34,061 nt of DNA from Synergistaceae bacterium (GCA_029267465.1 JAJUIT010000005.1:1-34061), one strand, 5' to 3'. Positions 2,830-33,575 are shown, numbered from the stretch's first letter. Program-made: numbers and translations. The notes: generated from the letters alone by a model not told the origin.

Positions 2830-2880
2830 ATTCGGTGTAATCCTCCGGGAACCCGCTCAAATTTTAAGTCATTGGGGTCC

Positions 2881-2909
2881 TTGTTGGGATCCCAAAAATC
2901 GCTTATGCT
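2881..2909 (+). promoter_or_regulatory. Candidate promoter overlapping a 12-bp palindrome (possible GntR operator)
   Basis: TTGTTG (2881-2886), 17 nt, TATGCT (2904-2909). Perfect palindrome TTGGGATCCCAA at 2884-2895 with a related half-site TTGGGGTCC at 2872-2880, in the divergent intergenic region. Confidence 0.4.
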
Positions 2910-2974
2910 ATTTTCCTACGAGGGGAAGTCCCCTGTCAATAACAATTCAGGGCTTTCAACTGGGGGGTGAAAGA

Positions 2975-6210: not shown

Positions 6211-6222
6211 GAGGGATCTGCC

Positions 6223-16103: not shown

Positions 16104-16108
16104 GAGCC

Positions 16109-17587
16109 CTAGAGCGGCCTTGTTCCTGCTTCGAAGCGGATTTCCCGCGTTTGGGGAACAAGGCCGCTCTCTTTCCGCAGGAACCGCTGTTCCCACAGGG
16201 AAAGGAAAAGACAGGTCAGCGTGACGGTGCTTGAATCCCGGTCCGGCTGTTCCAGTCGGCTTCTTTCTCCTTCTGGAATGAAACCCGGGACGGGGTTTTT
16301 CCTGAAGAAGCCCGCGAAGGGTCCGCTCGTGCAGAGCCTCGTCCGGGGCCAGCCGGTTCCGCCCTTTTTCTCCATGGCCGGGCAGCCTGGCAGGTTTTCC
16401 TGGAGGATGCCCTTGAGAAGGTGCTTCAAGTGTCCATTCCGGGTGTACCGAAACGGCATGGGGATCTTCAGGGATTCCTCGACGGCCGTTCTCTGGGAGA
16501 AGGGGGCATGGAGGCTTTTGCCGAGGGAAAAGGCCTGCTGCCGGTAGCGGTTGAACCAGTGGCCCGAGAAGAAGACCATGAACGCGCACAGTTCAGCCTG
16601 CCGGTTAAGGATCTCCCTTTCCGGGGAACGGAAGCAAAAGCGCGCCAGGACATATTCGAGGCGTCTTTCGAAAGCCCTCTCGACCGCCCTTGAGCCCAGG
16701 ATCCTCTCGACCAGCCGGATGTCGGAGGTGCTGTAGCTTTTCGCGGCAAACCCTTCCGGGTCCTCCGCAGGCCGGCACGCCCTTCCTTTCTGCTCTTCCG
16801 TTTCCGGTGCGTAAACCTGCTTGACGGCGGAAAAGCCGAAAAGCGTGTCGGCGTAGTCGCCGCTGAAGAAAAGCCGGGAAGATCTCCGGAAGGCTCTCGA
16901 GTTGAAAACGGGCTGGAAAACAGTCACCGGAAAGATTTGGCCGGTCTCTTCCAGCGCATCAAGGCTCAAGGAGGGCAGGTCGCTTTCCTGGATCTCGATC
17001 CTTTGGGGACGGATTCCCAGCTCCCGGGCAGATTGTTCGGCGTACTCCCTTTCGAACCGGAACTCCGGGCTGTCGCACCCCACGAAAACCGCTTCAGAGG
17101 AATCGCCAAGCCGCCATTTCAGGAGGGTCGAGTCCACTCCGCCCGAAAAGAGAACCGCCTTCTCCCTCCGATCTGAAAACAGCTCCAGGGCTTGATCCAG
17201 GGAGCCGAGGACGCGTTTTGCGGCAATCGAAGGATCGGTTTCTCCCCGCGGCTCAAGCCGTTCCTGGAAGACGGGACGGAATCTCCCGGAATCCAGGTCG
17301 ATTTCGAGGGTCTGGCCATGGGCGACCCTGCGGATGGGTCCGAACTCGGTGCGGTGTCCCGGCATGTCCGGGAAGAGCAGCAGGTCCGCCAGCCAATCGT
17401 CTGTCAGTGGGAAGTTTCGGCCGGGCAGAGATTCGAGGGCGTTGCGGAAATGATCGGTTACGATAAGGCTCCCGTTGGCTCCCGCCAGGAAAAACAGGTC
17501 AGCGGTGGAGTTGATCGATCGGTACAGGAAAAGGCGCCGGAGTGTCCCCCCCTGGTCCTGCAGGCAAACCAGGGTGCCTTCTTCCAC
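16109..17587 (-). CDS. Asparagine-synthase-like protein, paralog 1 (N-terminus probably extends to about 17739 through a frameshift)
   Basis: VLFSGGVDSTLLKWRLG, VGCDSPEFRFEREYAEQSAREL, FFSGDYADTLFGF, KKGGTGWPRTRLCTSGPFAGFF. The annotated start is a GTG (17585-17587); homologous sequence continues upstream without an ATG/GTG/TTG in frame. Confidence 0.8.
   Translation of the reverse strand: MEEGTLVCLQDQGGTLRRLFLYRSINSTADLFFLAGANGSLIVTDHFRNALESLPGRNFPLTDDWLADLLLFPDMPGHRTEFGPIRRVAHGQTLEIDLDSGRFRPVFQERLEPRGETDPSIAAKRVLGSLDQALELFSDRREKAVLFSGGVDSTLLKWRLGDSSEAVFVGCDSPEFRFEREYAEQSARELGIRPQRIEIQESDLPSLSLDALEETGQIFPVTVFQPVFNSRAFRRSSRLFFSGDYADTLFGFSAVKQVYAPETEEQKGRACRPAEDPEGFAAKSYSTSDIRLVERILGSRAVERAFERRLEYVLARFCFRSPEREILNRQAELCAFMVFFSGHWFNRYRQQAFSLGKSLHAPFSQRTAVEESLKIPMPFRYTRNGHLKHLLKGILQENLPGCPAMEKKGGTGWPRTRLCTSGPFAGFFRKNPVPGFIPEGERSRLEQPDRDSSTVTLTCLFLSLWEQRFLRKESGLVPQTREIRFEAGTRPL
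16111..16170. terminator. Long-stem hairpin between convergent genes
   Basis: AGAGCGGCCTTGTTCC (16111-16126) / GGAACAAGGCCGCTCT (16155-16170), perfect 16-bp arms, 28-nt loop; lies over the 3' end of the minus-strand gene. Confidence 0.55.
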
Positions 17588-17782
17588 GCAGCGGGCAATG
17601 CGGCTCCATTGGGGATCAGGGCACGCCAGGTCGACGCGCTTTGTTGCGGCTTTCCGGAGAAAATCTCCGAGGAGAAGAGAGGGCTCCCCACCAGGCCGGG
17701 CTTCCCTCCCGCAGGGGGGCTGCCTCGGGGTTGGTCCACAAAAAGCGGAGGTGCCGGAAGGGAGGTGTTCCCCCTAAGCGGT

Positions 17783-18499
17783 TCACGTTCCGGTCCCTCT
17801 CCGGGCCAGGAAAAACTCCGCCAGGGCCAGGTCATCCGGGCTGTCGACGTTGACGGAAACATCGGGTTCCATCAGGTAGGGGACACAGCCGGGGCCGTAA
17901 GCGATCTTCCCCGACCGCCAGGTTTCCGTCCAGGCGGCATAGATGGCCCCGTTCCGGGTGTAGGTTTTCGTAAGTTCCTGCCGCCTTGGGGGAACGGGCT
18001 GTTCCAGGAAGGGTCGAAGCGCCCCGTCGTTGATGGAAAATTGCCAGGCGGGGTGATAATGCCCCGGGACTTCCGCCACGCTGACGACCGAGCGGGCCCC
18101 GGAGTCGAGAAGAAGCTCGAGGGCCTCGTCGACGTGGCGGCCCGTCCGGAGCGGGGCCGTCGGCTGCAGAAGAACGAGGATGTCGGGCAGATGGCCTTCG
18201 TTTTCCCAGAGCCAGTCAAGGGCGTGGATCACCACGGCGGAAGACGGCGTGTCGTCCTGAGCCAGTTCCGCAGGCCGGAGGAACGGCACTTCCGCTCCGG
18301 CCCGCCTTCCTTCCGCGGCGATTTCTTGCGAATCCGTGGAGAGGATCACCCGCCCCACCAGGCGGCTCTCGAGACCGCTTTCGATGGCCCTGGCGACGAG
18401 GCTCTTTCCGGCTAGCAGGCGGAGATTTTTGCCGGGAATGCCCTTGGATCCCGACCGTGCAGGGATGAGGCCGAGGATTCGGAGATCTTCAGAATTCAT
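17783..18499 (-). CDS. neuA: Acylneuraminate cytidylyltransferase (CMP-nonulosonate synthetase)
   Basis: ILGLIPARSGSKGIPGKNLRLLAGKSLVARAIES, VILSTDSQEIAAEGRRAGAEVPFLRPAELAQDDTPS, LLQPTAPLRTGRHVDEAL. Start ATG 18499, overlapping the upstream stop. Confidence 0.88.
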   Translation of the reverse strand: MNSEDLRILGLIPARSGSKGIPGKNLRLLAGKSLVARAIESGLESRLVGRVILSTDSQEIAAEGRRAGAEVPFLRPAELAQDDTPSSAVVIHALDWLWENEGHLPDILVLLQPTAPLRTGRHVDEALELLLDSGARSVVSVAEVPGHYHPAWQFSINDGALRPFLEQPVPPRRQELTKTYTRNGAIYAAWTETWRSGKIAYGPGCVPYLMEPDVSVNVDSPDDLALAEFFLARRGTGT

Positions 18500-19755
18500 G
18501 GTGTCGCTTCCCCCGCCTTTCGTGTCCCTGCCCGGATGATTCCGTTGGGATCGACGAAAAGCGTTTCGGCCGAGATCCGCCTTTCGATCCCCTCGAATTC
18601 CCGGTGGCGCGTGAGAAGGGCCACCACGTTCGCTTCTTTCAGGGCCTCCTCGAGGGAGACCAGCCGACAGTTTGGAAGGGCGGAAAGAGGAGGGCAGAGC
18701 CGGTCGATGTTCGGTTCCACGATCCGGACCTCGCCGTTCTTCATGGAGCACAGCTTTCCGGCGATCTTGACGGCGGGGCTTTCCCGCAGGTCGTTCACGT
18801 TCGGCTTATAAGCCAGCCCCAGGCAGGCGAAGACGGGGTTCTCGAACCGGCAGGCCGCTTTCTTAATCCGCTCCAGGACCCATTCCGTCTTGCGTTCGTT
18901 GGTCTTCCGCGCGGCCTGGATCAGCGCCGTGTCCTCCGGGGCGGACGCAACCAAGAACCACGGGTCCACGGGGATGCAATGGCCCCCGACTCCAGGCCCC
19001 GGCTCCATGATCCGGACCCGGGGATGCCGGTTTGCCAGGCCGATGAGAGCCTCCGGGTCGATGCCCCACTTCACGCAAAGCATGGAGATTTCGTTGGCGA
19101 AAGCGATGGAAGCGTCCCGGGAGGCGTTTTCCACCAGCTTGCACATCTCGGCCGTCCTGGCGTCCGTCGTGTGAACCGCCCCGCGGACGAAGCCCCTGTA
19201 GAAGGAGGCCGCCTTTTCGGTCGATTCCGGGTCGATCCCTCCCACGACCCGGTCCACTTCGACTAGCTCTTCCAGGATCTTTCCCGGGAGGACCCTTTCG
19301 GGGCAGTGGGCGGCGAAAAAGAGAGGCCGGCCTTCGGGGGAGGCAAGGTCCGGCCGTTTTTCGAGGAGCCTGGAGGCCATTTTCTCCGTGGTTCCCACGG
19401 GAACCGTGGATTCGATGACCAGGAGGTTTCCCGCTTCAAGAAACGGGGAGATCGAATCCACGGCCTGTTCCACGAAGGAAAGGTCTGCCTTGCGGACCTC
19501 TCGCACCGGCGTGGGGACGGCGACGATGAAAACATCGGCCCGTGAAACGGAACCCGATGGAACGAGCCTCCCTGAAGAAACACACTCCCGGGCCAGGGCG
19601 CCAAGGGATGGTTCCAGGCCGGGAAGATTGCCCAAGCGAAGCGCGCGAAGGACGCTCTCGCTCGTGTCAACTCCCCGGACCGAGTGCCCGTGTCGGGCCA
19701 GCAGCGCGGCAAACGGAAGACCGATGTAGCCAAGGCCAAGAACGCAAACGTTCAA
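18496..19755 (-). CDS. Nucleotide sugar dehydrogenase, UDP-ManNAc dehydrogenase (WecC) type
   Basis: VCVLGLGYIGLPFAALLARHGHSVRGVD, VPTPV, ESTVPVGTTEKM, PERVLPGK, VGGIDPEST, GPGVGGHCIPVDPWFL, LGLAYKPNVNDLRESPA. TTG start with GGAGAGG upstream. Confidence 0.9.
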   Translation of the reverse strand: MNVCVLGLGYIGLPFAALLARHGHSVRGVDTSESVLRALRLGNLPGLEPSLGALARECVSSGRLVPSGSVSRADVFIVAVPTPVREVRKADLSFVEQAVDSISPFLEAGNLLVIESTVPVGTTEKMASRLLEKRPDLASPEGRPLFFAAHCPERVLPGKILEELVEVDRVVGGIDPESTEKAASFYRGFVRGAVHTTDARTAEMCKLVENASRDASIAFANEISMLCVKWGIDPEALIGLANRHPRVRIMEPGPGVGGHCIPVDPWFLVASAPEDTALIQAARKTNERKTEWVLERIKKAACRFENPVFACLGLAYKPNVNDLRESPAVKIAGKLCSMKNGEVRIVEPNIDRLCPPLSALPNCRLVSLEEALKEANVVALLTRHREFEGIERRISAETLFVDPNGIIRAGTRKAGEATP

Positions 19756-19837: not shown

Positions 19838-19873
19838 TTGCGGGGCAGGATGTTTCCGGCTAGATTCATACAA
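19838..19873 (+). promoter_or_regulatory. Candidate promoter giving a leaderless transcript
   Basis: TTGCGG (19838-19843), 17 nt, TAGATT (19861-19866); the start ATG at 19873 lies where +1 is expected; no SD upstream. Confidence 0.45.
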
Positions 19874-21033
19874 TGGAAAAAGAAAGAATTCACCGAAAAG
19901 CTTTTCTGCGCCCCTACACGGATTCCGACTGGGACCCGGTGCACGGCTTCATCGCCTCCCAATGGGGGCTCGACCACCCCATGACGGAACGGCGGCTCTT
20001 CGACTGGCAGTTTTCGGGGTTCGGTCCCTCGAAAAACCAGGCTCGCCCGATCCTGCTTTTCATGGAAGAGGAGCTGGCCGGTTTTCGGGGAATCATCCCC
20101 GGGCTGTACCAAGTCCCGTCCGGAAAGGGGATGCGGATCCTTCCCGGCGGGAGCCTTGCCATGTGGATGGTCCGGAAGGAATTCCGGGGCCTGGGACTGG
20201 GCCGGCTGATGCATGCCGAAGCGGAACGGCTGTGTCCCGTCCTTTCCGGGGCCGGGTCGAACCCGGAAACATCGGTTCCGATCTACCTGGAAAACGGATT
20301 CCGGTTCCTGGAGGCCATGAACCGTTACCTGGCGGTCCTGGATCCCCAAGCCTGCATGGACCGCTTCGGACGGCAGGCCGCCGCGATTCCTCCCGTTCCT
20401 GCAGGTACCGGCGCTTCGCTTGCCCCTTCAAAACCGGATGCCGCTTGGCTTGCCGAAACCTGGAAGGGGTCCGCCTTCGCTGCCGGGTTCTTTTCCCTTT
20501 ACCGGAACGCGGAATTCTGGAAATGGAGAATCCTGGAAAGCCCCGGGTTTCGTTACGAAACCTTCGTGGATCCGGACGGCGCCGGATTCGCAGTTGGCCG
20601 GATCGAGCCGCTTTTTTCGGGCGAGGGAAGCCCTTCCCCGGTGTCTTGCGTCCTGAGGATCATCGACCTGGTCCCTTCCAGCGTTTCCGCGTGGAACGGG
20701 TCCGAGGACGAGGCGTTCGCCAGTTTCCTCGGGCGCTGTTTAAAATGGGCCCGCTCCGCCGCCGGCTGCATAGCGGCGGATTTCCACTGCGCCAGCGGCG
20801 TCTTCTGGCCCATGCTGAACAGGGCCGGTTTTGCCAGGGAACGGGATTTCACGCTGGGGGACGTTCCTCCCCTGCCCCGTCTTTTCAACGGCTCACCGGG
20901 TTCAGGCCGGCCCATCAACGCCCTGTTCAAGGCTCCCGGGCATTTTTCCTTCGAGCGGGTTTACATGGTGAAATCCGACAACGATATGGATCGCCCAAGG
21001 AGGCTGGATTCAAATGGGCAAGTCCTTTACTGA
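19873..21033 (+). CDS. GNAT-family N-acetyltransferase
   Basis: LAGFRGIIPGLYQVPSGKGMRILPGGSLAMWMVRKEFRGLGLGRLMHAEAERLCPVLSGAGSNPETSVPIYLENGFRFLEAMNRYL shows the acetyl-CoA-binding motif A (RGLGLGRLM) and a Y-x-x-N-G-F motif. Confidence 0.75.
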   Translation: MEKERIHRKAFLRPYTDSDWDPVHGFIASQWGLDHPMTERRLFDWQFSGFGPSKNQARPILLFMEEELAGFRGIIPGLYQVPSGKGMRILPGGSLAMWMVRKEFRGLGLGRLMHAEAERLCPVLSGAGSNPETSVPIYLENGFRFLEAMNRYLAVLDPQACMDRFGRQAAAIPPVPAGTGASLAPSKPDAAWLAETWKGSAFAAGFFSLYRNAEFWKWRILESPGFRYETFVDPDGAGFAVGRIEPLFSGEGSPSPVSCVLRIIDLVPSSVSAWNGSEDEAFASFLGRCLKWARSAAGCIAADFHCASGVFWPMLNRAGFARERDFTLGDVPPLPRLFNGSPGSGRPINALFKAPGHFSFERVYMVKSDNDMDRPRRLDSNGQVLY

Positions 21034-22048
21034 AGCGTTGAACGAGGGGAAGTGCCTGGTGATCGGAGAGGTCGCCATGGCCCACGACGGCAGCCTCGGC
21101 CTCGCCCACGCTTTCATCGACGCGGTGGCACGAACCGGAGCGGATGCCGTGAAGTTCCAGACCCACCTGGCCGAGGCGGAGGGAACGGCGGCCGAACCGT
21201 TCCGGACGCCGTTCAGCCCGCAGGATTCCACCCGGAGGGAGTACTGGAACCGGACTGCCTTCACGGAAGACCAGTGGGCGGGCCTGGCGCGGCACGCCGA
21301 GGAGAAGGGGCTCTTTTTCCTGAGCTCGCCGTTTTCCCTGGAAGCCGCGGCCCTGCTCCGGCGGGTCGGGGTCTCGGCCTGGAAAGTCCCCTCCGGCGAA
21401 ACCGGGAACGCTCCCTTACTGGAGGACCTGCTGACGGATCGGCTGCCGATCCTTCTTTCGACGGGGATGAGTCCCATGGCCGAAATCGACGCCGCCGTCC
21501 GGAAGGTAAAGGAAGCGGGGGTTTTGCTCGCGGTCCTGCAGTGCACCAGCGCTTACCCGTGCCCTCCCGAGAAGGTGGGATTGAACCTGGTTCCGCTTTT
21601 CAGGGAACGCTATGGCTGCGCGGTGGGACTCTCGGACCACTCCGGAACGATTTTCCCGGGGCTGGCCGCCGCGGTTCTGGGGATCCAGGTCCTGGAGGTT
21701 CACGTCACCCTCTCCCGGGAAATGTTCGGCCCGGATGTCCCGGCCTCCGTGACGACCGGGGAGCTTGCGACCCTCGTGGAAGGAATCCGCTGGATCGAGC
21801 GCATGAGGGCGTCCCCGGTGGACAAGGACCTCGCGGCGGAAAGCATGGCTCCCCTGAGGCGGATCTTCACCAAGAGCCTGGTTGCCGCCAAGCCCCTGCC
21901 GGCGGGAACGATCCTGAGCCGTTCCCTGGTTGCCCTGAAAAAACCCGGTACGGGCCTGCCGGCCTCGAAACTCGAAAGCGTGATCGGCCGCCGGCTGAAA
22001 ACACCCCTGGAGAGGGACGCGCAAATCCTGGAGGAGAACCTCGAATGA
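21014..22048 (+). CDS. neuB: N-acetylneuraminate synthase family protein (NeuB/LegI/SpsE type)
   Basis: ADAVKFQTHLAEAE, VSAWKVPSGETGNAPLLEDL, LSTGMSPMAEID, LQCTSAYPCPPEKVGLN, VGLSDHSGTIFPGLAA, LEVHVTLSREMFGPDVPAS, C-terminal SAF-like domain. Confidence 0.92.
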   Translation: MGKSFTEALNEGKCLVIGEVAMAHDGSLGLAHAFIDAVARTGADAVKFQTHLAEAEGTAAEPFRTPFSPQDSTRREYWNRTAFTEDQWAGLARHAEEKGLFFLSSPFSLEAAALLRRVGVSAWKVPSGETGNAPLLEDLLTDRLPILLSTGMSPMAEIDAAVRKVKEAGVLLAVLQCTSAYPCPPEKVGLNLVPLFRERYGCAVGLSDHSGTIFPGLAAAVLGIQVLEVHVTLSREMFGPDVPASVTTGELATLVEGIRWIERMRASPVDKDLAAESMAPLRRIFTKSLVAAKPLPAGTILSRSLVALKKPGTGLPASKLESVIGRRLKTPLERDAQILEENLE

Positions 22049-23193
22049 AACGCAAAGTCGCCGTCGTCGTGACCGCCCGTCCCAGCTACGCGCGGATCAA
22101 GACCGCGCTGAAAGCCATGGAAGCCCACCCGGGAATCGACCTCCAGCTGGTCGTCGCGGCTTCGGCCCTCCTGGACCGTTACGGCAGCGCCTCCACGGTG
22201 ATCGAGAAGGACGGGTTCCGCATCGCTTCCCGGGTCTTCATGCTCCTGGAAGGGGAGAATCCCCAGACTTCCGCCATCACGACGGGCCTGGGGCTCGTGG
22301 AAATGGCAACCGTCTTTGAAAACCTCAAGCCGGACGCCGTCGTGACCATCGCGGACCGGTTCGAAACCCTGGCCACGGCTTCGGCCGCGGCCCTCATGAA
22401 TCTCCCCCTGGTGCACGTCCAGGGGGGCGAAGTCACCGGTTCGGTGGACGAGAAAGTCCGCCACGCGGTCACCAAGATGGCCGACCTCCACTTCGTCGCG
22501 ACGGCCAAGGCCCGGGAGCGGGTCATCCGCATGGGGGAAGACCCTGGAAGGGTGTTCGTCACCGGCTGCCCTTCCATCGACCTGGCCGCGGAGGTTTCCC
22601 GGCTGCCCGGAAACGGCTTCGACCCGTTCGCTTTCGGGGTCGGCCCAACGCTGGACCTGTCGGGTCCCTGCCTGGTCGTCATGCAGCACCCTGTCACCAC
22701 CGAGTACGCCGAGGCCCGCCGCCAGGCCATGGAAACCCTTTACGCCGTCAGGGACCTCGGAATTCCCGCCCTGTGGTTCTGGCCCAACCCGGACGCCGGG
22801 TCGGACGGGACCTCGAAAGCCATCCGCTGGTTCCGGGAGCACGAATCGCCGCAGAACATCCATTTTTTCCGCAATTTCCCCCCGGAAACCTTCCTGCGCC
22901 TTCTGGCCCGCTGCAGCTGCATCATCGGGAACTCCAGCGCGGCGATCCGGGAATGCGCCTTCCTGGGAGTCCCAGCGGTCAATGTCGGGACGCGCCAGGA
23001 GGGAAGGGAAAGGGGGCGCAACGTGGTGGACGTTCCGCACGATCGGCGCAAGATCGAGGAAGCCGTGCGATTTCAGCTGGGCCACGGTCCCTACCCGCAG
23101 GATCCCGTCTATGGCGACGGGCAGGCCGGCCCCCGGATCGCGGACCTGCTGGCCACCCTGCCCCTGTCGATCGAAAAGAGGCTGACCTATTGA
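22045..23193 (+). CDS. neuC: UDP-N-acetylglucosamine 2-epimerase, hydrolysing (NeuC/LegG type)
   Basis: VAVVVTARPSYARIKTALKAMEAHPGIDLQLVVAASALLDRYG, DRFETLATASAAALMNLPLVHVQGGEVTGSVDEKVRHAVTKMADLHFVAT, GNSSAAIRECAFLGVPAVNVGTRQEGRERGRNV. The ORF call from 21052 is spurious upstream of 22045. Confidence 0.92.
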   Translation: MKRKVAVVVTARPSYARIKTALKAMEAHPGIDLQLVVAASALLDRYGSASTVIEKDGFRIASRVFMLLEGENPQTSAITTGLGLVEMATVFENLKPDAVVTIADRFETLATASAAALMNLPLVHVQGGEVTGSVDEKVRHAVTKMADLHFVATAKARERVIRMGEDPGRVFVTGCPSIDLAAEVSRLPGNGFDPFAFGVGPTLDLSGPCLVVMQHPVTTEYAEARRQAMETLYAVRDLGIPALWFWPNPDAGSDGTSKAIRWFREHESPQNIHFFRNFPPETFLRLLARCSCIIGNSSAAIRECAFLGVPAVNVGTRQEGRERGRNVVDVPHDRRKIEEAVRFQLGHGPYPQDPVYGDGQAGPRIADLLATLPLSIEKRLTY

Positions 23194-24146
23194 ACGCAAA
23201 CGGCGCGGAAACCGTCATCGTGACTTACCACTACCTGACCGGTGAGGTCTTCCCGGGGAGGGGAGTCCACCCCTTCGGCCTGGAACGGTTCCGGGCGCAG
23301 CTTGAGAGGCTCGCCCGAACCTCGCGGTTTCTGAGCCTGGAGGACCTCCTCGAAGAAAGGCGGCCTCCCCTGCGGGGCGCTCGCCGGTACGTCCTTCTGA
23401 CCTTCGATGACGGCCTGGCGGAGCAGTTCGAAGCGGGGCTTCCTTTGCTCGAATCCATGGGGATCCCGGCGGTCTTTTTCCCGTGCACCGGCCCGATGGA
23501 AAACGGGGCCCTTCTCCACGTCCACCGGCTGCATGCCCTTCGGAGCGCCCTGTCGGACCGGGATCTTTTGGCCCTTTTCCTGCGGATTGCAGAATCCCGG
23601 GGGTTCGAGGAAAGCGCCCGGGACATCACCCTGGGCCCGGCGGAAACGGCTTCCTATCCCTATGACGAACCCGAAGGCCGGCGCCTGAAGTCTCTGTTCA
23701 ATTACACGCTGCCGGTCAAGGAAAGGGAAACGATCACGGCCCTCGCGTTCGAGGAGGTCTTCGGGCACTCCAGGCCCTGGGCCGAACGTCTTTACATGAG
23801 TCCCGCAATGATCCGGGAACTGGGCCGCAAGGGGCTCCTGGGGACCCATACGCACTCCCACAGGCCCCTCTCCAGCCTGGGGCGGGAAGGGGCGAGGAAG
23901 GAAATCGAGGTGAGCCTCGATCTCCTCGAAAAAACGGCTGGTTTTCGGCCCCGTGCGGTGAGCTATCCTTATGGCGGAAGGCTCGCCGTTTCCCCTGAAA
24001 CCTTCGAGGCGGCCTCGGACTGCGGAATGGCGTGCGGTTTCACCACGGAAAGGAGAGCAAACCCCGTTGGAACGCACCGTCTGCGGCTGGGCCGGTTCGA
24101 TGCGGAGGACCTTTACCCCGGAAAGAGGCCGCTTTTCGATCTGTAA
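23190..24146 (+). CDS. Polysaccharide deacetylase (NodB-like)
   Basis: VTYHYL, LLTFDDGLAEQFEAGLPLLESMGIPAVFFPCTG, LLGTHTHSHRPLSSLGREGARKEIEVSLDLLEKTAGFRPRAVSYPYGG. TTG start overlapping the upstream stop. Confidence 0.88.
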   Translation: MNANGAETVIVTYHYLTGEVFPGRGVHPFGLERFRAQLERLARTSRFLSLEDLLEERRPPLRGARRYVLLTFDDGLAEQFEAGLPLLESMGIPAVFFPCTGPMENGALLHVHRLHALRSALSDRDLLALFLRIAESRGFEESARDITLGPAETASYPYDEPEGRRLKSLFNYTLPVKERETITALAFEEVFGHSRPWAERLYMSPAMIRELGRKGLLGTHTHSHRPLSSLGREGARKEIEVSLDLLEKTAGFRPRAVSYPYGGRLAVSPETFEAASDCGMACGFTTERRANPVGTHRLRLGRFDAEDLYPGKRPLFDL

Positions 24147-24177: not shown

Positions 24178-25854
24178 ATGGTCGAATTCGTGCTTGCGGA
24201 TCCCCACGCGAGTGTTTTCGAGGCGGGGAAAACGGTCTGGATGGTATCCGGTTCCGATCCTGCCCTTTTCCGGGAGCTTGTCGAGAGGGAAACGGCAAAG
24301 GGGCGGGAGGCGAAAGAGATCCTTCCCGCACTTGCCCGGGAAGCGGAGGAAGGAACTTTTGCGGCCGTCGAATGCCTGGGGCAAGCGGGAGAAAGGGTCT
24401 CCCTCTTCCGGACCCTGCCCTCCACGTTTGAACTCTATTTCTGCGAAGAAGAGGGAACGATCCGGGTGTTCGACCATTTCCGGAACGCGATTGCCTCCCT
24501 CCCGGAAGCCGAACGAGTCCCGGACGAAAGAGCCTACGCTGACCACCTCCTTTTTGCCTACGAGTACATTCCCGGAACCTACACGCTCGTCCGGGGGATC
24601 CACAAGCTGATCCCGGGGGGGATGGCGGAAATCATCCAGGGTGAGCCGCCCGTTTTCCGGCAGGCCGAAACGATTTTCCTCCCCTTGGAAGAAGGGGGTC
24701 CCAGTCCAACCGAGTCCGTTCAAAAACTGGAAGAGATCTTGGAAGAACGAGTGTCCGCCTACGCGGCTTCTTATGGCAAGCCCGCGGTGCTGCTTTCGGG
24801 GGGGGTCGACTCGACGCTGGTCCTTTCGTGCCTTGGAAAAGGGACATCCGCCCTGACGGTGGGACTCGACAGCCCGGAATACGCCTTCGAGATGGAGTAC
24901 GCCAGGATGGCGGGAAGACTTCTCCAAGCCGACCACACGCTGGAGATCCTGGAAGAAGCGAGCTTTCGCCAATCGATCAGGGAGGTGGTCGAAGATCTCG
25001 GGCAGCCGACAGGAACGGTTTTCCTCCAGCCGATGGCGTTCCACCGGGCCTTTCGGAAGCCTCCTTCTTTTTTTCTCTATGGCGAGGCCGTAGATGCCCT
25101 TTTTGGTTTTAACAAGCTCGCGAGGATCTTCGACGATGATGCCCTTTCACCCTCTGAAAAGGAAGCCCTTGGCCGGCAGCCCGCGGACCTGGCCGGTTTC
25201 GGAGCCCGGTGCGGACTCAGCCCGGATTTTGAGACGGCCCGCCGGATTGTCGGGGAAGCCGAAACGGAACGCCGGCTCGAGAACCGCCTGGAATTCGCCC
25301 TGACGATCTGCCCCGGGCTGCGGTGGGTCGAAGCCGGCCGCCTCAGGGCGGCTCACGCGGAAACGATGGCCCTTTTCACGGGCTTCGGCCACATCCGGGA
25401 GTACATTGGCCGGACGCGGCAGCAGGCCCTCTGCGCGGGGAAGACCGTGATGTCCCCGTTTGCCTGCAGGAGTGCCATGGAACTTGCCCTGTCGATGCCG
25501 ATGCCCCGAAGGATCCTCAAGGGCGGCGTGGTCAAGCACGTGGCGAAATCGCTTCTAGAGAAACGCCTGCCAGGCTACCCCGTCCACACCCGCAAGGGGG
25601 GCAGCGACGTCCCCCGGACCCGGTTCCTCCAGGAAGGCCCCCTCAGGGACATCTTCCTCGAAGAAAAGCCCCCGCGACCCTGGCCGGAAGAATATTCTGA
25701 GATTCTTCTCCATCCCCGAAGGGAATCCAGTTTCCTGGCCCTCAGCGCCCTGGGGTACGCCCTGTGGCAGAGCCATGTCCTGGAAAACCCGGACCTTAAA
25801 CCGATCCCGGGGACTCGAACGCTCCGGGCACAATTCGCGGGGGAGCGGTCATGA
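24178..25854 (+). CDS. Asparagine-synthase-like protein, paralog 2
   Basis: VLLSGGVDSTLVLSCLG, VGLDSPEYAFEMEYARMAGRLL, YGEAVDALFGF, KGGSDVPRTRFLQEGPLRDIF. Confidence 0.85.
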   Translation: MVEFVLADPHASVFEAGKTVWMVSGSDPALFRELVERETAKGREAKEILPALAREAEEGTFAAVECLGQAGERVSLFRTLPSTFELYFCEEEGTIRVFDHFRNAIASLPEAERVPDERAYADHLLFAYEYIPGTYTLVRGIHKLIPGGMAEIIQGEPPVFRQAETIFLPLEEGGPSPTESVQKLEEILEERVSAYAASYGKPAVLLSGGVDSTLVLSCLGKGTSALTVGLDSPEYAFEMEYARMAGRLLQADHTLEILEEASFRQSIREVVEDLGQPTGTVFLQPMAFHRAFRKPPSFFLYGEAVDALFGFNKLARIFDDDALSPSEKEALGRQPADLAGFGARCGLSPDFETARRIVGEAETERRLENRLEFALTICPGLRWVEAGRLRAAHAETMALFTGFGHIREYIGRTRQQALCAGKTVMSPFACRSAMELALSMPMPRRILKGGVVKHVAKSLLEKRLPGYPVHTRKGGSDVPRTRFLQEGPLRDIFLEEKPPRPWPEEYSEILLHPRRESSFLALSALGYALWQSHVLENPDLKPIPGTRTLRAQFAGERS

Positions 25855-27506
25855 TCACGGTGACCCTGGCGGATCCCGGGGCGTTTCAGGCTCGAACGCC
25901 CCGGGGGGACTGGTTTGTCTCGGCGGAAAACCGCGGGCGCCTGAGGGAGGAACTGGAAAAACCGGCCTTCCTCGCCCTGTCCGCAAGGGAGCAGGTCGAG
26001 CGCCTCGGGGCCCTGGCCGACGACGGAACCCTGCTCTACGTCCCCGGCGACGCTTCACCCCTCTGGCTTTACAGGACGATCAACGCCTCGAGGGATCTTT
26101 ATTTCACCCGTGACGGCAGGGGAAACTGGCTGTTCGCGGACCACTTCCGGAACCTGATGGCCCTGGTTCCGCCCAGCCGGCGCCGGCTGGGCCGAAATGC
26201 CCTCCTGGATTTCCTGCTGTTTTTCTTCCCGGCGGGGAACTCCACCCTCCTGGAAGGCGTTTTGCGCCTTGTCCCGGGAGAGTGCCGCACCATCGATGCG
26301 GGCGGCACTGGAGAAGAACGGTCCCGGCAGGCGGAAATCTTTCCCTGCGGTTCCGCCGAGCTGACCCTCGGCGAAGCCGCTGATGCCCTCGAGGATGCCC
26401 TGGCGTCCGCCCTTGGCGAGCCGGTTTCGAACGACTGCGTCCTCTTCTCGGGGGGAGCGGATTCGACTCTTGTCCTTTTGTTTCGGCCGGCCGGTTCCGT
26501 TGCCCTCACGGTCGGCATCGACACGCCGGAGTTCGCCTTTGAACTGGAATATGCCCGGGAGACAGCCCGGATGCTGGATTCGGACTGGAAGCTTGTTCTC
26601 CTGGAAGAGCAGGACTACAGAAAACAGTTCGAGGATGCCGTCTTTTTTCTGGGGCAGCCGTTCCACCCGAACTTTCAGCCGGTTTTGTTGAACCGGGCCT
26701 TCCAAGAACCCTTCGATGTCTTCTGGGGGGCAAACGCTTCGGACACCCTTTTCGGGCACCCCCAGACGAGAAAGCTCCTGTCGCCGGATAGACGGAAAGA
26801 AAACGAGTCCCTTTTGGCGGAACCCTTCCATTCCCCCAAGGGGTACGGAGCCCTCTCCAACACCGGACCGGATGTTCGAATCGTCCGGGACCTTTTCGGG
26901 GACGAAGCCGTGTCCAGCCGCATCGAAGCGCGCCTTTCCCAGGTCCTGAAAAGCGCAAGGGTGCATTCCGGCAATCCCGTCGAGGAACATGTCCAGGTCG
27001 ACTCCCTGATGGAATTCCTGACGAGCACGAGCTCGATCGCGAGCCGGAAGCGCCAGGCGGCCGCCTCGTTCGGCAGCCAGGCAAGGGAACCTTTCTTCGC
27101 CAGAAGCGTCCTGGGCATTGCCGCGTCGATCCCCCCAGGGATGAGGTTTTTTCACGAAGGAGAGTCGAAGCCGGTGCCGAAGGCGCTGCTCAGGAAAAGG
27201 CTCCCGGAATATTCCTTCTACGCCCGAAAGGGAGGCAGCGACATCCCCCGCACCCGTTTCTGCCAGTCGGGACCGTTCCGCGACTTTTTCAAAGAATGGC
27301 CCCTTCCGGACCTTTTCCCTCGGAAGGGTCAGAAACTCCTTCTCGATCCCCAGTGGGACTGGAGCTTTCTGACGCTCTCCGCCGCCGCTTTTTCAGTCTG
27401 GCAGGAAAAAGTCCTGAAGTCCGAAAACCTTTGCCTGGTCCCTGGGACAAGGGTGTTTCGGCTGGATCCAGCTCATCAAAAGGAAGGCCGCGAGGAATGG
27501 GAATGA
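25851..27506 (+). CDS. Asparagine-synthase-like protein, paralog 3
   Basis: VLFSGGADSTLVLLF, VGIDTPEFAFELEYARETARML, WGANASDTLFGH, KGGSDIPRTRFCQSGPFRDFF. ATGA overlap with paralog 2. Confidence 0.85.
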   Translation: MITVTLADPGAFQARTPRGDWFVSAENRGRLREELEKPAFLALSAREQVERLGALADDGTLLYVPGDASPLWLYRTINASRDLYFTRDGRGNWLFADHFRNLMALVPPSRRRLGRNALLDFLLFFFPAGNSTLLEGVLRLVPGECRTIDAGGTGEERSRQAEIFPCGSAELTLGEAADALEDALASALGEPVSNDCVLFSGGADSTLVLLFRPAGSVALTVGIDTPEFAFELEYARETARMLDSDWKLVLLEEQDYRKQFEDAVFFLGQPFHPNFQPVLLNRAFQEPFDVFWGANASDTLFGHPQTRKLLSPDRRKENESLLAEPFHSPKGYGALSNTGPDVRIVRDLFGDEAVSSRIEARLSQVLKSARVHSGNPVEEHVQVDSLMEFLTSTSSIASRKRQAAASFGSQAREPFFARSVLGIAASIPPGMRFFHEGESKPVPKALLRKRLPEYSFYARKGGSDIPRTRFCQSGPFRDFFKEWPLPDLFPRKGQKLLLDPQWDWSFLTLSAAAFSVWQEKVLKSENLCLVPGTRVFRLDPAHQKEGREEWE

Positions 27507-29055
27507 GGGCAAAGTTGAAAGCAGAGATCACGGACCCGCTGAAAAGGGTTTTTCAAACCCCGAGGCGGACGATCATCCTCTGCGGGAGCTGGGAAAACGA
27601 GCTTCCCGACATGCCGTTCCTCCAGGGCCTTCCGCCCGAAGATGCCCTTCTGAGGCTGTCGCGCCGCGAACGAAACGGTTTTTCCGTCCTTCTGGAGAAG
27701 GACGAGGAAGGCTGCGTGCGGGAACTTTACGCGTACAGGGGGCTGACCACCGGATTCGAACTGTTTTTCGCCCCGGTCCCGGGTCGCGGCTGGATCCTGT
27801 CGGACTCGTTCCGTCAGGTTCTCCAGGGCTTGCCCCCGTCCTCCAGGATCCCCTCAGGGACGGGATTCGTCGATTTCCTCCTTTTCCAGCATAGCCCCCT
27901 CCCTGAGACCCCCATCGAGGGCATCCGACGAATCGGTCACGGGAACCTTTTTTTTAGGCGACAGCGGGCGGAACCGTTTCTGAGAGACAGGTCCGGCGCC
28001 TGGGGTTCCCGGAAAAATCCCTTTCGTTCCAGGAAGGTGCGGAGCAGATCGAAGAGATCCTGGGAAAAATCCTGGGGTCTGTGCCCGGAGACTGCGTCAA
28101 CCTCCTGTCCGGAGGAGTCGATTCGACCCTCGTGCAAGTGCTCCTTGGGCCTGGACACCGGGCTGCCGCGGCAACGATCGATTCCCCGGAATTCGCTTTT
28201 GAAACCGAAAACGCGAGGCGTTCGGCCGAACTCTGCGGGGTTTTCCTGGAGCAGAAAGCCGTCTTGGAAAGCTCCCTCCCCGAGTTGCTGGAAAGACAGA
28301 GTGCCTTGGCGGCCCTGCCCCTTCCGCTGGCACAGGTCTCCCTGATCGCCTCGGTCTTTGAACTGGACGGCCGGTTCTTCTCTTCGGGATTTGACTCGGA
28401 TTCGCTTTTTTCCCTGCCGCGTTCCAAGCGGAAACGGCTCCTGGAGGGGGTCCCGCCTCATTCGCTCGAAGCGGAAAGTTTCTCGGTTTCCCCGGAAACG
28501 GAACTGCTGAAAACCCTTTTTGGAGAGAAACGGATCGAAGAACGGCTGGAAGCGCGAAAAACATATGTACGGAACCGGCTTTCGGAACCGGACCGAGTGT
28601 CCCGCCTGGAGCTGGGCTGCCTGACCAGCCTGTACTGCAGCTCCTTTGCGGTGTACCGTCACCTGGCCTCGGAAAGAGGGAAGACGCTTTTCACGCCCTT
28701 CATGGACTGCCGGCTGGTTGAATCCGCCCTTACGATACCCCTCCCAGAGCGTGTTTATCGACAGGGAATCTTCAAGCCCGTTTTGAAGCACGTCCTTGCC
28801 AGGCACCTTCCTGCTTACCCGAAAAACCTGGAAAAGGGCGGGTCCGGCCTGCCCCGCACCCGCCTTTGCGCGGAAGGGCCCTTCAAGGGGTACTTCCTGG
28901 AAAATTCTCCGCCGGCCTTCCTCGATCCGGGAAAGGCGGCTTTTCTGCTGAATCCTTCCTGGGATTCGAGCATGACCGCATACCGGTGCATCGCCTGGTC
29001 GGCCTGGGAGAAAACCCTCTCGTTCATCCCCGAGGAGGAACGCCCATGGGAATAA
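27503..29055 (+). pseudogene. Asparagine-synthase-like protein, paralog 4, apparent frameshift near 27958
   Basis: N-terminal half in the frame of ORF 27296..28345 (..IEGIRRIGHGNLFF), C-terminal half in the frame of ORF 28081..29055 (LLSGGVDSTLVQVLLG .. KGGSGLPRTRLCAEGPFKGYF). Upstream of 28081 that frame reads ATAGGTVSERQVRRLGFPEKSLSFQEGAEQIEEILGKILG, matching DAGGTGEERSRQAEIFP in paralog 3. Confidence 0.65.
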
Positions 29056-30548
29056 ACGTTTTCTTCACCGGCCCGGAAAGACAGGTTTTGGAAACTTTCG
29101 CGGGAACCTGGCATCTCCTGGCGGATCGGAAGGTCCTACCGGAAGAACTTCCCGACCCGAGAGAGGCGAAGCTTGACTGGAGCGCCTTCGGGGACCGCTT
29201 CGAAGAACTGACGGCTGTTTTCCTGCCTTTCCCGGAGGCCTCGAATCTTCCCTGCCAGGCCTTCAGGAGCCTTCTTTCCGGGTACGAGCTTTTCCGAGTC
29301 GAGACGCCGGAAGGAGACGTCGTCCTCACGGACGATTTCAAGTTCGCCGCCAAGGCGGCCGGCAAGCGGAAAACGTCTGAGACCTCGCTTCTGGACTACC
29401 TTCTTTTCCAGTACCCGGCCGGAAACGATACCTTCCTTCCCGGAGTTTCACGCCTGGGGGCCGGGGAGGCGCTGCTGGAAGAATCCAGGGAAACCTCCGG
29501 GCCGGTTTTTTGGCAGGCCGAGCGGTTCCGCCTGCCTTGTGAGGCTTCCTTCCAGGAGGCCCTGGAAACACTCCACAGGGTCCTTCCAGACGCCGTAAAC
29601 AACGCGCTGCAGGGGGCTGCCGACACCGCGGTTCTTTTTTCGGGCGGGATCGATTCGACCCTGATCGCGCATTTTGCCCGCGGCCGGTCCGTCGCCCTGC
29701 ATGCCGCGATCGACTCTGCTGAACTAGACTACGAGGAGGACTACGCGCGGTCCGCCTGCAGGGAACTGGAAATGCCGCTGGTACGGGTGCTCTTTTCGGA
29801 ATCCGGGTTCCTTTCCGAGCTGGAGGACACGGTGGAGAAAATGGGCCGCCCCTTTCCCGTGACCAACTTCCAGGCGATTTTTCACAACCGGCTCTTCCGG
29901 CTTCCGTACAGTCTCTACCTGAGCGGGGACATCGCAGACAGGCTATTCGGGAAGGGAAACGAGGCGGCCCCTTCGGGCATCGAAAGCCCGGCTTCGGGGC
30001 TGGTCCGGTATTGCCCGGTCGGACTGCTCAAGGAGATCTTCGGTCCGGACCTCGTGGAAAGCCGCCTCCGGCTTTTTGACGAAACCCTGGAAAGAGTGGC
30101 GGGCCCGGAAGGCGAACGATACCCCGCGGCTCTGAAAACGGACCTTTTGATCGTTTTCGGACTCAATTACTGGGTGCACTTCTTCCGGCCCCTGGCTGCG
30201 GTCTACGGAAAGAAGTTTGTCGCTCCCTACCAGGGGAAGAAGGTGTTCGAGGCCGCCTTTTCCTGTCGCTATCGGAACCGGCTTCCCGGCACGCACTCGA
30301 AGCCGCTCCTTTGGGCAATGCTCCGGGATCTCCTGCCGGGATACCCGGCTTCTGGAAAGAAGGGGGGAAGCGGAGTGCCCCGCACGCGCTTCTGCCAAAC
30401 GGGCCCGATGAAGGATTTTTTCCTGGATCACGACCTCCCGTCGGGCATTCCCCGGCGGTTTGAGAGGATTTTCCGGGAACCCCGGTGGGAAACCAGCGCT
30501 CTCGTCCTGCAGGCAGCCGTTTACCGGATCTGGGAGGAAAGGTTATGA
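29046..30548 (+). CDS. Asparagine-synthase-like protein, paralog 5
   Basis: VLFSGGIDSTLIAHFARG, AAIDSAELDYEEDYARSACREL, SGDIADRLFGK, KGGSGVPRTRFCQTGPMKDFF. Start ATG 29046 overlaps the upstream stop. Confidence 0.85.
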   Translation: MGINVFFTGPERQVLETFAGTWHLLADRKVLPEELPDPREAKLDWSAFGDRFEELTAVFLPFPEASNLPCQAFRSLLSGYELFRVETPEGDVVLTDDFKFAAKAAGKRKTSETSLLDYLLFQYPAGNDTFLPGVSRLGAGEALLEESRETSGPVFWQAERFRLPCEASFQEALETLHRVLPDAVNNALQGAADTAVLFSGGIDSTLIAHFARGRSVALHAAIDSAELDYEEDYARSACRELEMPLVRVLFSESGFLSELEDTVEKMGRPFPVTNFQAIFHNRLFRLPYSLYLSGDIADRLFGKGNEAAPSGIESPASGLVRYCPVGLLKEIFGPDLVESRLRLFDETLERVAGPEGERYPAALKTDLLIVFGLNYWVHFFRPLAAVYGKKFVAPYQGKKVFEAAFSCRYRNRLPGTHSKPLLWAMLRDLLPGYPASGKKGGSGVPRTRFCQTGPMKDFFLDHDLPSGIPRRFERIFREPRWETSALVLQAAVYRIWEERL

Positions 30549-31876
30549 AACAGGATGTCGATATCCTCATTTTTCTTGAACACCTGAATCGCGAGCTCGA
30601 TACCGCTTTGCTGCTGAAGATCCTGCTCTCGCATCGCGGGTATTCCGTGAGGCTGGCCTCGGTTTTCTACGACCTCTGGGAATCGGTTGCCACCCTGCGT
30701 CCGAGATTGCTGATCGTCCCCTGGGCTTACTCGGAGGTCAGGAAATACTGCCGCTTTGAACCTCAACCGGGCGAAGGGCTAAGAATTCTCAACCTACATC
30801 ACGAGCAGATCGGCTTGGAAGGAGACAGGGCCAATCGCATGGTTCCCCTGGGAGATGCAGAAAAAGTCTTTCATCTGGCCTGGGGTGAAAGGTTTGAGCA
30901 GGTGCTTCGTTCGAGAGGCATACCGGAAGCGCTGATCTTCAGGACCGGAAGTCCCCGGCTCGACTTTCTGAGAAAAGAAATGAAGAATTTCAACCCGACC
31001 AGAAACGACCTCGCCGAATGGTACAGCCTTGACCCTGGGAAGCGCTGGTTGATAATCGCCGGGAACTTTTCCATTGTTTCTGCAAGCGAACGGACGATTC
31101 GGGATAAAGTAAAGAAAGGTTTTAAGGACTATCCCGAATTTGTCGAAAAAGCACGCCGGCTCTACGAGAAAGTGATTCATTGGATGGTGCGCCTGGCCTC
31201 AGAGAACAAAGACATAGAGGTGATCTATCGTCCACATCCTGCGGAAAGACTGACCCGGAGTCTTTGCGAGCGCGTAAAGAATACCCCCGGGTTCAGTCTG
31301 ATCTGGGAAAGACCGGTCGGAGACTGGATCGTGAACGCAGACTCCGTTTTTGTCTGGAGCAGCACAAGCGCGGTGGACGCCTTGGCTTGCGATAAACCTG
31401 TTTTTTCCCTGCGCCTCGACAAGGAAGCAAAAACGGCGCTTCCCGGCGGGTACCTGCCGATCATCGACGACCTCCCGATCGTGGCAAGCTACGAAGAATT
31501 TGTCCATGCCGCGTACAGCAATGAAAAGCCTTCTCTGCACCGAGCTTGGGAGAAGGCGCTCTCCCGCTACCGGGAATTTTACGATACGCCGGATGAACCT
31601 GCGTTTCAGAAACTGGAACGGAAAATCGCCGAGATCATGGATAGCGGAATCGGGAACCGATTCGATAGAATGCCGGTCCCCGCAGCTCTGGAGATTTTTT
31701 ACCGCCTCCAGCAGGCAGGAAAGAGAAAGCTTCATGATACCGGCCTAATCAGGCATTTCCGCCGGTATGAAAAGGAGGCCGGGGAACGGCTTTTGCCGAA
31801 CCTGATCGCGGTTCGGGAGGGTTTTCTTAGGGAGAAGCTGTCCGAAAAGCCCTGGTCGACTGGAAAAGGGGAATGA
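30545..31876 (+). CDS. Surface carbohydrate biosynthesis protein, GT-B/CDP-glycerol glycerophosphotransferase-like
   Basis: VIYRPHPAERLTRSLCERVKNTPGFSLIWERPVGDWIVNADSVFVWSSTSAVDALACDKPVFSLRL resembles the C-terminal half of surface-polysaccharide GT-B-fold proteins. Confidence 0.65.
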   Translation: MKQDVDILIFLEHLNRELDTALLLKILLSHRGYSVRLASVFYDLWESVATLRPRLLIVPWAYSEVRKYCRFEPQPGEGLRILNLHHEQIGLEGDRANRMVPLGDAEKVFHLAWGERFEQVLRSRGIPEALIFRTGSPRLDFLRKEMKNFNPTRNDLAEWYSLDPGKRWLIIAGNFSIVSASERTIRDKVKKGFKDYPEFVEKARRLYEKVIHWMVRLASENKDIEVIYRPHPAERLTRSLCERVKNTPGFSLIWERPVGDWIVNADSVFVWSSTSAVDALACDKPVFSLRLDKEAKTALPGGYLPIIDDLPIVASYEEFVHAAYSNEKPSLHRAWEKALSRYREFYDTPDEPAFQKLERKIAEIMDSGIGNRFDRMPVPAALEIFYRLQQAGKRKLHDTGLIRHFRRYEKEAGERLLPNLIAVREGFLREKLSEKPWSTGKGE

Positions 31877-31880
31877 AGTT

Positions 31881-33575
31881 ATGGATGATTTCTGCCGATT
31901 GATCCTGAAAAACCCGGAAGTCTGCACAATACGGAGCATGACTGGAACCTGGCTCGTCTCCGCGCTGGGGGTTACGGCGATAGAAGGCCGGCTGAGGCAG
32001 GAAGAGGGGAAAGGGGCTTCTCCCACAGAGATCATCGAGGCCCTTGCTCCTCAGATGGAGGAAGGGACGGTCGTTTTCCTTCCCTCGCCGGAATTCCCCG
32101 ATCCGAGAGTCCTGGCCTTCAAGTCGGTGATTTGCTCAAGGGAGCTTTTCTGGGCGACGGCGCAGGACGGTGCCTTCGTTCTGTCTGACCGCCTGGCGGA
32201 CCTCCTTCCCGAGCTGCCGCTTTCGGCCAGGAAGTTATCGGATCGCAGGGCGGTTCACTTCCTGATGGGCTGCAATCTCCGGGGGGACTACACGCTGATC
32301 GAAGCCGTCCGGCGGGTCGGGCACGGGGAACTGGTCCTCTTCGCGCCGGGGGGAGGAAAAGAACCGGAGAGAAGAAGGGTCCAGCGCTTTTCGTGGGATT
32401 CCTCGGTCGAGGACGAAGGGGAAAGCCTCGATCTCCTGGAACGGTCGCTCGAAAAGGTTTCCCGGCTCGTCGCCCGCCAACGGGACAGTGCCCTGATGTT
32501 CTCCGGCGGGGTCGATTCCACCCTTCTTTGGACCTTCCTCGGGATTCCCGCTTTGACTGGATTTGTCGACACGGATCCCTCCGAGCGGGAAAACGCCAGG
32601 GCCGAGGCCGAGCGACACGGCATCGAACTTCAATTTATGCCCCTGAAGGAGAGCGATTTCCTGGAAGAGTTCGCTGGAGCGATCCGGGACGCCGGGCAGC
32701 CCTTCATCAGCTCGAATTACCAGATGCTGTACTACAGGCTGGCCTTTCGGCAGGGGGTCGCGCATCTCGTTTCCGGAGAACTCGCCGACTCCCTCTGGGG
32801 GATTTCTCACACGGCCAGGCTTTTCCAGGAAGAACAGGCAAAGGGATACGAAAAAGCCATGGCTTCTTCTCCCCTTTCACCCGAAGGCTATGGAATCCGG
32901 ATCCACCTCCTGCTTCCCGACGACCTCCCCCTGCTGGAGCGGGTCTACGGGGAACAGGCCATCCTGGACCTGCTGGGGCAAAACCTTTCCTACGCGCTGG
33001 ATTGTCTGGATCCCGCCGTTCCCTTGGACCGCGATTTTCGGAAGGGTCACGCGGACCTGGGCAGCCTCGCGTTCATCCTGAACGGTTCCTGGAGAAGCAA
33101 CTACCGGCAGGCCGGCTACATTCACGGTGTCGGCATTTCCCTGCCTTTTGAAACCTTGTCCATGGTCCGCGCGGCGCTTTCCATCGAACTGCCCGGGAGG
33201 ATCCTTTCGAAAGAAGGGCAGGTCAAGCCCCTGATCCGCAGGTTGCTCCACCGGCGGCTTCCGGGAAGCCTTCTGGCTCCCAAATCCGGATCCGGCCTGC
33301 CTCGAACCCGGTACTGCCAGGAAGGGCCCCTGAAAGATTTCTTCCGGACGAACCCGATCCCTGCCTTCTGGCCCCAGGAGCAAGCCGACCTGCTCGTTAA
33401 CCCGGCCTGGGAATCCAGTTCCCTGGTGTTGAAATGCATCTCGCTCAGCCTATGGGAAAAAGAGGTCCTGGGGAAAGCCGGAATCCGGATCGGCAAGGCT
33501 TCAGAGAATGCTCACTCCCACATCGTCCTCATCCGGAACAGCTCCGCGCCGTCGGACGGGCGGAAGACTCCGTGA
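31881..33575 (+). CDS. Asparagine-synthase-like protein, paralog 6
   Basis: LMFSGGVDSTLLWTFLG, GFVDTDPSERENARAEAERHG, SGELADSLWG, KSGSGLPRTRYCQEGPLKDFF. Confidence 0.85.
   Translation: MDDFCRLILKNPEVCTIRSMTGTWLVSALGVTAIEGRLRQEEGKGASPTEIIEALAPQMEEGTVVFLPSPEFPDPRVLAFKSVICSRELFWATAQDGAFVLSDRLADLLPELPLSARKLSDRRAVHFLMGCNLRGDYTLIEAVRRVGHGELVLFAPGGGKEPERRRVQRFSWDSSVEDEGESLDLLERSLEKVSRLVARQRDSALMFSGGVDSTLLWTFLGIPALTGFVDTDPSERENARAEAERHGIELQFMPLKESDFLEEFAGAIRDAGQPFISSNYQMLYYRLAFRQGVAHLVSGELADSLWGISHTARLFQEEQAKGYEKAMASSPLSPEGYGIRIHLLLPDDLPLLERVYGEQAILDLLGQNLSYALDCLDPAVPLDRDFRKGHADLGSLAFILNGSWRSNYRQAGYIHGVGISLPFETLSMVRAALSIELPGRILSKEGQVKPLIRRLLHRRLPGSLLAPKSGSGLPRTRYCQEGPLKDFFRTNPIPAFWPQEQADLLVNPAWESSSLVLKCISLSLWEKEVLGKAGIRIGKASENAHSHIVLIRNSSAPSDGRKTP

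Follow-up and report, generated by a model that had tools for sequence, protein, structure and literature searches.

Cys-less AsnB-like proteins, predicted to act as glutamine-independent ligases, in a putative surface-glycan gene cluster of a Synergistaceae bacterium

Glutaminase loss in relatives of the asparagine synthetase AsnB is best known from the biosynthesis of antibiotics and of ribosomally synthesized and post-translationally modified peptides. The known products of AsnB relatives include amides, lactams and, as a recent addition, nitriles (PMC6097109; PMC13060819), which widens the range of products that a further member might form. In the glycan field, a cluster of Tannerella forsythia carries asnB, wecC, wecB and CMP-pseudaminic acid (CMP-Pse) genes, and the glycan contains N-acetylmannosaminuronic acid (ManNAcA) and N-acetylmannosamine (ManNAc)-uronamide (PMC6120980). 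No described Cys-less AsnB-like glycan family was found in the open-access literature. The subject of this work is a stretch of 34,061 nucleotides (the window) from a Synergistaceae bacterium (GCA_029267465.1, JAJUIT010000005.1:1-34061). It forms contig C127 in a draft genome of 2.06 Mb (G000) and has its relatives in named collections among Synergistaceae/Synergistales metagenome-assembled genomes. The window encodes five AsnB-like proteins, A1 to A5, in one row at 24178-33575 and a sixth copy, A6, apart from them. By sequence comparison, they appear to represent a glutaminase-dead AsnB branch that has expanded into specialised copies within a glycan cluster.

Six stretches of the window scored above the cut-off of PF00733 (Asn_synthase) in a Pfam scan, and three further matches elsewhere in the window genome were all weak (<=25.5 bits). 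The plus strand carries A1 (24178-25854, 558 amino acids (aa), 54 bits), A2 (25851-27506, 551 aa, 68 bits), A3 (27503-29055, frame-broken in the assembly and recognised from its reading frames and intact orthologs), the genus-specific A4 (29046-30548, 500 aa, 60 bits) and A5 (31881-33575, 564 aa, 48.5 bits), all of them Cys-less AsnB-like ligases by annotation, and A6 with its broken N-terminus lies on the minus strand (16109-17587, 36 bits). A preliminary description had counted five Cys-less AsnB relatives at 24178-33575; this holds as to their kind, with the corrections that the gene beginning MRAKLKAE is frame-broken and that 30545-31876 encodes no AsnB relative.

The five N-termini quoted in that description (MVEFVLADP, MITVTLADP, MRAKLKAE, MGINVFFTG and MDDFCRLIL) are all real in the sequence, and the lack of Cys1 claimed there was borne out by a start scan, the loss extending to the glutamine pocket and to the length of the domain. 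Between the in-frame stop upstream and codon 120, neither A1-A5 nor any of the 18 frames of orthologs in four other genomes contained a start codon (ATG, GTG, TTG or CTG) with a Cys codon directly after it, so that no alternative start exposing an N-terminal Cys, the observation set beforehand as speaking against the claim, turned up in these frames. Canonical AsnB-type proteins from this phylum (L017, L018, L020) that the same search retrieved start with M/V-C-G, demonstrating that the scan is able to detect a true Cys1. A stop codon immediately precedes the ATG of A1, leaving zero open codons upstream, A1 of genomes G006 and G007 has no Cys within residues 1-180, and Cys5 of A5 (MDDFC) is not conserved.

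The remainder of the glutaminase site was compared in an alignment of 30 proteins, comprising 25 Cys-less rows and others including Escherichia coli AsnB and Streptomyces clavuligerus Bls1, the latter identified by the genes next to it, one for a thiamine-pyrophosphate enzyme and one agmatinase-like. AsnB residues N74-G75-E76 fall into a gap and D98 is unmatched in all 25 Cys-less rows, and R49 meets a single Arg in one of the 25, in a weakly aligned, gap-rich region. At ~15% identity single positions of the N-terminal alignment are uncertain, whereas the absence of the block is certain. The N-terminal domain is shortened, since the PP-loop of the Cys-less proteins starts at residue 199-208, that of E. 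coli AsnB at 235 and that of the canonical phylum members at 264-281. Sequence and models together lend good support to the loss of the own glutaminase in A1-A5, and these proteins are thus predicted not to hydrolyse glutamine. As for the earlier statement that ammonia or an amine is used instead of glutamine, its negative half agrees with the missing glutaminase (Cys1, N74-G75-E76 and D98 are gone, and Pfam reported PF00733 without a GATase domain in any of A1-A6), while for its positive half established enzymology would lead one to expect free ammonia or a bound amine as the nucleophile.

The ATP half gives the opposite picture. The SGGxDS motif of the PP-loop, D351, K429 and K449 (AsnB numbering) are invariant in 30 of 30 aligned proteins, and the C-terminal ATP site is, as judged from these residues, retained in every copy. 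The position of AsnB E348 is more variable, being E in A1 and A5, D in A4, A6 and a further copy named A7, N in the window copy of A2 and D in its orthologs, F in the intact A3 orthologs, and Y only in Bls1. The Tyr of the Tyr-Glu dyad of beta-lactam and carbapenam synthetases, which occupies this position, was found in none of the paralogs, which have E, D, N or F. The residue is not claimed as proof of different chemistry, since canonical members of the phylum vary here too (D, Q and D). A7 is a different extra copy that belongs to genome G009, where it lies on another contig (L044:5216-6913) with glycosyltransferase genes alongside.

AlphaFold models of A1 (predicted local distance difference test score, pLDDT, 90.3; predicted template modelling score, pTM, 0.90) and of an A3 ortholog (pLDDT 91.0, pTM 0.92) were confident throughout. 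In Foldseek searches of the PDB, both matched TsnB9 (7YLZ), asparagine synthetases and the carbapenam and beta-lactam synthetases from end to end (E between about 1e-15 and 4e-10, for A1 2e-15 to 4e-10; template modelling (TM) score 0.49-0.65; root-mean-square deviation 6-10 A). The high deviation suggests differing domain orientations, and the models predict the two-domain AsnB fold along the whole chain. A later region resembling the N-terminal nucleophile (Ntn) domain had been described as still recognisable; this agrees with the C-terminal part of that domain, which remains recognisable, and with the match of the full-length models to the two-domain AsnB, beta-lactam synthetase and carbapenam synthetase (CarA). 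A single-sequence phmmer search of the PDB gave no match, whereas a sequence-profile search ranked beta-lactam synthetase and CarA first. The precedents cited in the preliminary description were therefore apt, carbapenam and beta-lactam synthetase being among the closest solved relatives together with the hydroxyamidotransferase TsnB9.

Compared with these enzymes, the window proteins share with E. coli AsnB (1CT9) the two-domain architecture, SGGxDS, D351, K429 and K449, but are devoid of Cys1 and the glutamine pocket, have a shorter N-terminal domain and keep E348 only in A1 and A5. Beta-lactam and carbapenam synthetases (1JGT, 1Q15) are likewise glutaminase-dead AsnB relatives, ranking first in the profile search and high in the fold searches, but perform intramolecular lactam chemistry and have other gene neighbours; Bls1 also differs in its full-size Ntn domain, its Tyr at the E348 position and its place on the other side of the tree. 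By fold, TsnB9 fits both models best (TM 0.57-0.65), and it has a GE..D active-site motif as in A1 and A5; it differs in its sequence (~16% identity) and in its natural-product context. Identity as a lasso, beta-lactam synthetase or sugar-amidotransferase family member was rejected, the corresponding models scoring below their cut-offs; the XrtA/PEP-CTERM amidotransferase model TIGR03108 reached 47 bits at best against a cut-off of 817, and the NAGGN amidotransferase model TIGR03104 42 bits against 570.

A profile search of 188 Synergistota genomes yielded strong full-length matches in five, of which G000, G006, G007 and G009 represent one genus and G185 another family of the same order. Eight further genomes gave weak or partial matches only (E 1e-11 to 1e-15), and the ligase set was absent from G008, which is of the same genus, in this search. 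The five clusters have a common gene order, with UDP-ManNAc dehydrogenase and cytidylyltransferase genes on one strand and GNAT-like, NeuB, NeuC, deacetylase, A1, A2, A3, (A4) and A5 genes on the other; A4 has no ortholog in G185. Orthologs are 50-75% identical (57-70% for A2) with full-length open frames in the four other genomes, whereas copies within one genome share ~30%. In the tree, rooted at its midpoint, A1, A2, A3 and A5 each form one group that includes G185 in 100% of bootstrap trees, from which it follows that the copies diverged before these genomes did, and the four are, as far as the tree tells, old and separately conserved lineages.

A branch with 100/100 support parts the 25 Cys-less rows, two haloarchaeal proteins included, from canonical AsnB and Bls1, and the simplest reading of this topology would be one loss of the glutaminase for the whole Cys-less branch. 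Outside Synergistota, the spread is known from plasmid records only; relatives in viral contigs were searched for and none was found. The two haloarchaeal "asparagine synthase-related" homologs, from Halorientalis (WP_077208133) and Halorussus (WP_158059678), are 25-31% identical over nearly the full length (26-27% at 97% coverage in the search of plasmids) and have the same short Cys-less N-terminal domain (DP..V.DT..G.W..SG). They differ in being plasmid-borne, in belonging to another domain of life and in having only partly glycan-related neighbours, the Halorientalis gene lying ~9 kb from a nucleotide sugar dehydrogenase gene. A second AsnB-like protein on a Halorientalis plasmid, Hor1 (L050:7690-9378), features a long N-terminal domain without Cys1, a degenerate PP-loop (SAGYDS) and an adjacent glmS, and is, by its sequence, another kind of glutaminase-dead relative.

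Several frames in this gene set are interrupted. The reading frame of A3 breaks near a T8 run (27948-27955), and its orthologs are intact in L009, L010, L011 and L042. Simple slippage at the T8 run, worked through by hand, was not supported as the cause, as the downstream frames meet a stop after either addition or removal of one T; the break may be either an assembly error or a true mutation. The N-terminal ~50 residues of A6 sit in another frame (region 16109-17800, minus strand), and this gene is either broken or mis-assembled. The breaks of A4 in G006 and G009 coincide with N runs, that is, assembly gaps, which rules out phase variation. In G009, the glycan-biosynthesis gene has a frame break close to a G8 run (L010:16696-16703), possibly through phase variation or a sequencing error.

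Upstream of A1 on the plus strand lie genes for a GNAT-like acyltransferase (19873-21033), recognised by its RGLGLG motif only, without a match in the Pfam and NCBIfam scans, and present in all five clusters; a NeuB-type nonulosonic acid synthase (21014-22048; TIGR03569, 287 bits, a family match under the equivalog cut-off); NeuC, a UDP-GlcNAc 2-epimerase of the hydrolysing type (22045-23193; TIGR03568, 362 bits, cut-off 236); and a polysaccharide (N-)deacetylase family protein (23190-24146; PF01522, 62 bits, with a weak match to TIGR03938 PgaB). The minus strand encodes a WecC-type UDP-N-acetylmannosamine dehydrogenase (18496-19755; NF008286, 461 bits, cut-off 459) and a cytidylyltransferase of the PseF/NeuA family, CMP-nonulosonate-like (17783-18751; PF02348, 66 bits; TIGR03584, 155.8 bits, below cut-off), the real start of which is probably near 18490 because the domain begins at about residue 91 of the open reading frame. 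Between A4 and A5 lies a gene for a surface carbohydrate biosynthesis protein resembling BFO_1060-type glycosyltransferases (30545-31876, plus strand; TIGR04396, 135.6 bits, cut-off 125); a homolog precedes A5 in G009 and G185, and no homolog was detected in G006 or G007, whose A4 and A5 genes nevertheless lie ~1 kb apart. The start of A2 overlaps the stop of A1 (ATGA), and most neighbouring genes of the row share a few bases where one stops and the next starts, as would be the case in a coupled operon.

WecC-type, NeuB, NeuC and PseF-like genes are present in all five clusters, and this co-location with sugar-dehydrogenase and nonulosonate genes, as expected of a sugar-acid amidating enzyme, points to surface-glycan synthesis on the strength of the family assignments. 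A partial precedent by analogy is the O-glycan cluster of T. forsythia, in which AsnB (Tanf_01265) likewise adjoins UDP-ManNAc dehydrogenase and nonulosonate genes (PMC6120980), differing in that one copy of 605 aa is present instead of five and in that its length suggests a full glutaminase domain. A1-A5, and A6 with them, are on balance probably glutamine-independent, ATP-dependent carboxylate-amine ligases that decorate a surface glycan. For the activity, the nucleophile or nitrogen donor (ammonia, an amine or a glutaminase in trans), the substrates and the order of action, we infer the following scheme. The WecC-type dehydrogenase would supply ManNAcA and the NeuB, NeuC and PseF-like proteins a nonulosonic acid, giving two carboxylate-bearing sugars, and the deacetylase family protein could expose an amine. 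In each ligase, the N-terminal Ntn glutaminase would have decayed to a short structural domain without nucleophile or glutamine pocket, with the ATP-pyrophosphatase domain still active, so that the carboxylate would be adenylated with ATP and then attacked by an amine. Attack by free ammonia would yield a carboxamide, e.g. ManNAc-uronamide or a nonulosonamide, and a substituted amide would result if the attacking amino group belonged to a second molecule or sugar. Since one overlapping operon retains all five divergent copies alongside sugar genes, their most likely targets would be distinct carboxylate or amine positions on one surface glycan containing ManNAcA and nonulosonic acid.

Several points weigh against this interpretation. 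A3 and A6 are both broken in the window assembly, the nonulosonate assignments depend on family models of which two (NeuB and PseF-like) fall below equivalog cut-offs, and for the T. forsythia asnB product the authors suggested, as a putative function, a reaction at the acetamidino group of Pse (PMC6120980). A stand-alone glutaminase elsewhere could also feed ammonia; none was seen among the cluster genes, no genome-wide search having been made. With such a glutaminase in trans, as for WbpG with HisH/HisF or for MurT-GatD, glutamine would still be the indirect nitrogen source, and a two-protein system would be expected to show just this combination of an intact ATP half and a lost glutaminase. 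WbpG-type proteins, however, have no such decayed N-terminal domain, whereas in A1-A5 it has not been deleted and still carries conserved motifs. As the NCBIfam scan gave no match to the WbpG-type family and the examined cluster genes include no stand-alone glutaminase, a donor in trans is considered rather unlikely. Intramolecular amide (lactam) synthetases or macrolactam cyclases of the beta-lactam synthetase or lasso cyclase type, acting on a small molecule or peptide, would accord with the closest solved relatives by profile, the aromatic residue at the E348 position in the A3 orthologs (Phe) and Bls1 (Tyr) and the weak matches to macrolactam-cyclase models. These models stay far below their cut-offs, however (26 bits against 525 for lasso, 41 against 300 for macrolactam), no lasso B protein, precursor or ceaS/pah-type genes were seen among the examined cluster genes, the neighbours are sugar genes in five of five clusters, and the tree parts the Cys-less proteins from Bls1 (100/100), which makes lactam formation improbable.

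Provision of asparagine for general metabolism by one or more ammonia-dependent copies might be considered because neither AsnA nor an AsnB with a glutaminase domain was found in G000, G006, G008, G009, G185 and the incomplete G007. The matches to PF13537 in these genomes are proteins of 458-473 aa and 616-657 aa, lengths that we take to be those of PurF and GlmS. On the other hand, five of the six genomes, the window genome among them, encode GatB of the tRNA-dependent Asn/Gln route (the exception being G007, 56% complete), and asparagine is probably made by that route. With canonical AsnB and AsnA absent and GatB mostly present, with G008 of the same genus lacking the whole ligase set, and with no need of five divergent copies in a glycan operon for asparagine supply, such a role is very improbable. 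Least probable of all, in our judgement, are decaying, non-functional relics, which the broken frames of A3 and A6 in the window assembly and of the G009 glycan-biosynthesis gene near its G8 run would suggest; orthologs 50-75% identical with full-length frames in four other genomes and invariant ATP-site residues speak against decay, and A4 is interrupted in G006 and G009 by N-run gaps only. Carboxylate-amine ligation on a surface glycan thus remains the preferred interpretation. A more speculative extension, held tentatively, is that a cross-domain AsnB branch of Synergistota and haloarchaea has permanently given up glutamine and that the five specialised copies act in turn, building several amide links on one nonulosonate/ManNAcA glycan, possibly with an aminoacyl or short peptide-like side chain.

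Other parts of the window were also inspected. An open reading frame at 14892-16589 (minus strand) was dismissed as a cluster gene, as it is the antisense shadow of malic enzyme. Two adjacent genes of the arginine-deiminase/DDAH family lie at 5242-7242 beside a metallo-beta-lactamase-fold gene (4312-5220), and two related frames at 11-775 and 2660-4315 resemble, as judged by eye, saccharopine-dehydrogenase-type enzymes.

The annotation "asparagine synthase" is probably misleading in these lineages, the genomes of which have no canonical AsnB. If the proposed role is true, glutaminase-dead AsnB chemistry would extend to glycan decoration, and the copies would provide a ready-made collection of natural amide ligases that differ in specificity.

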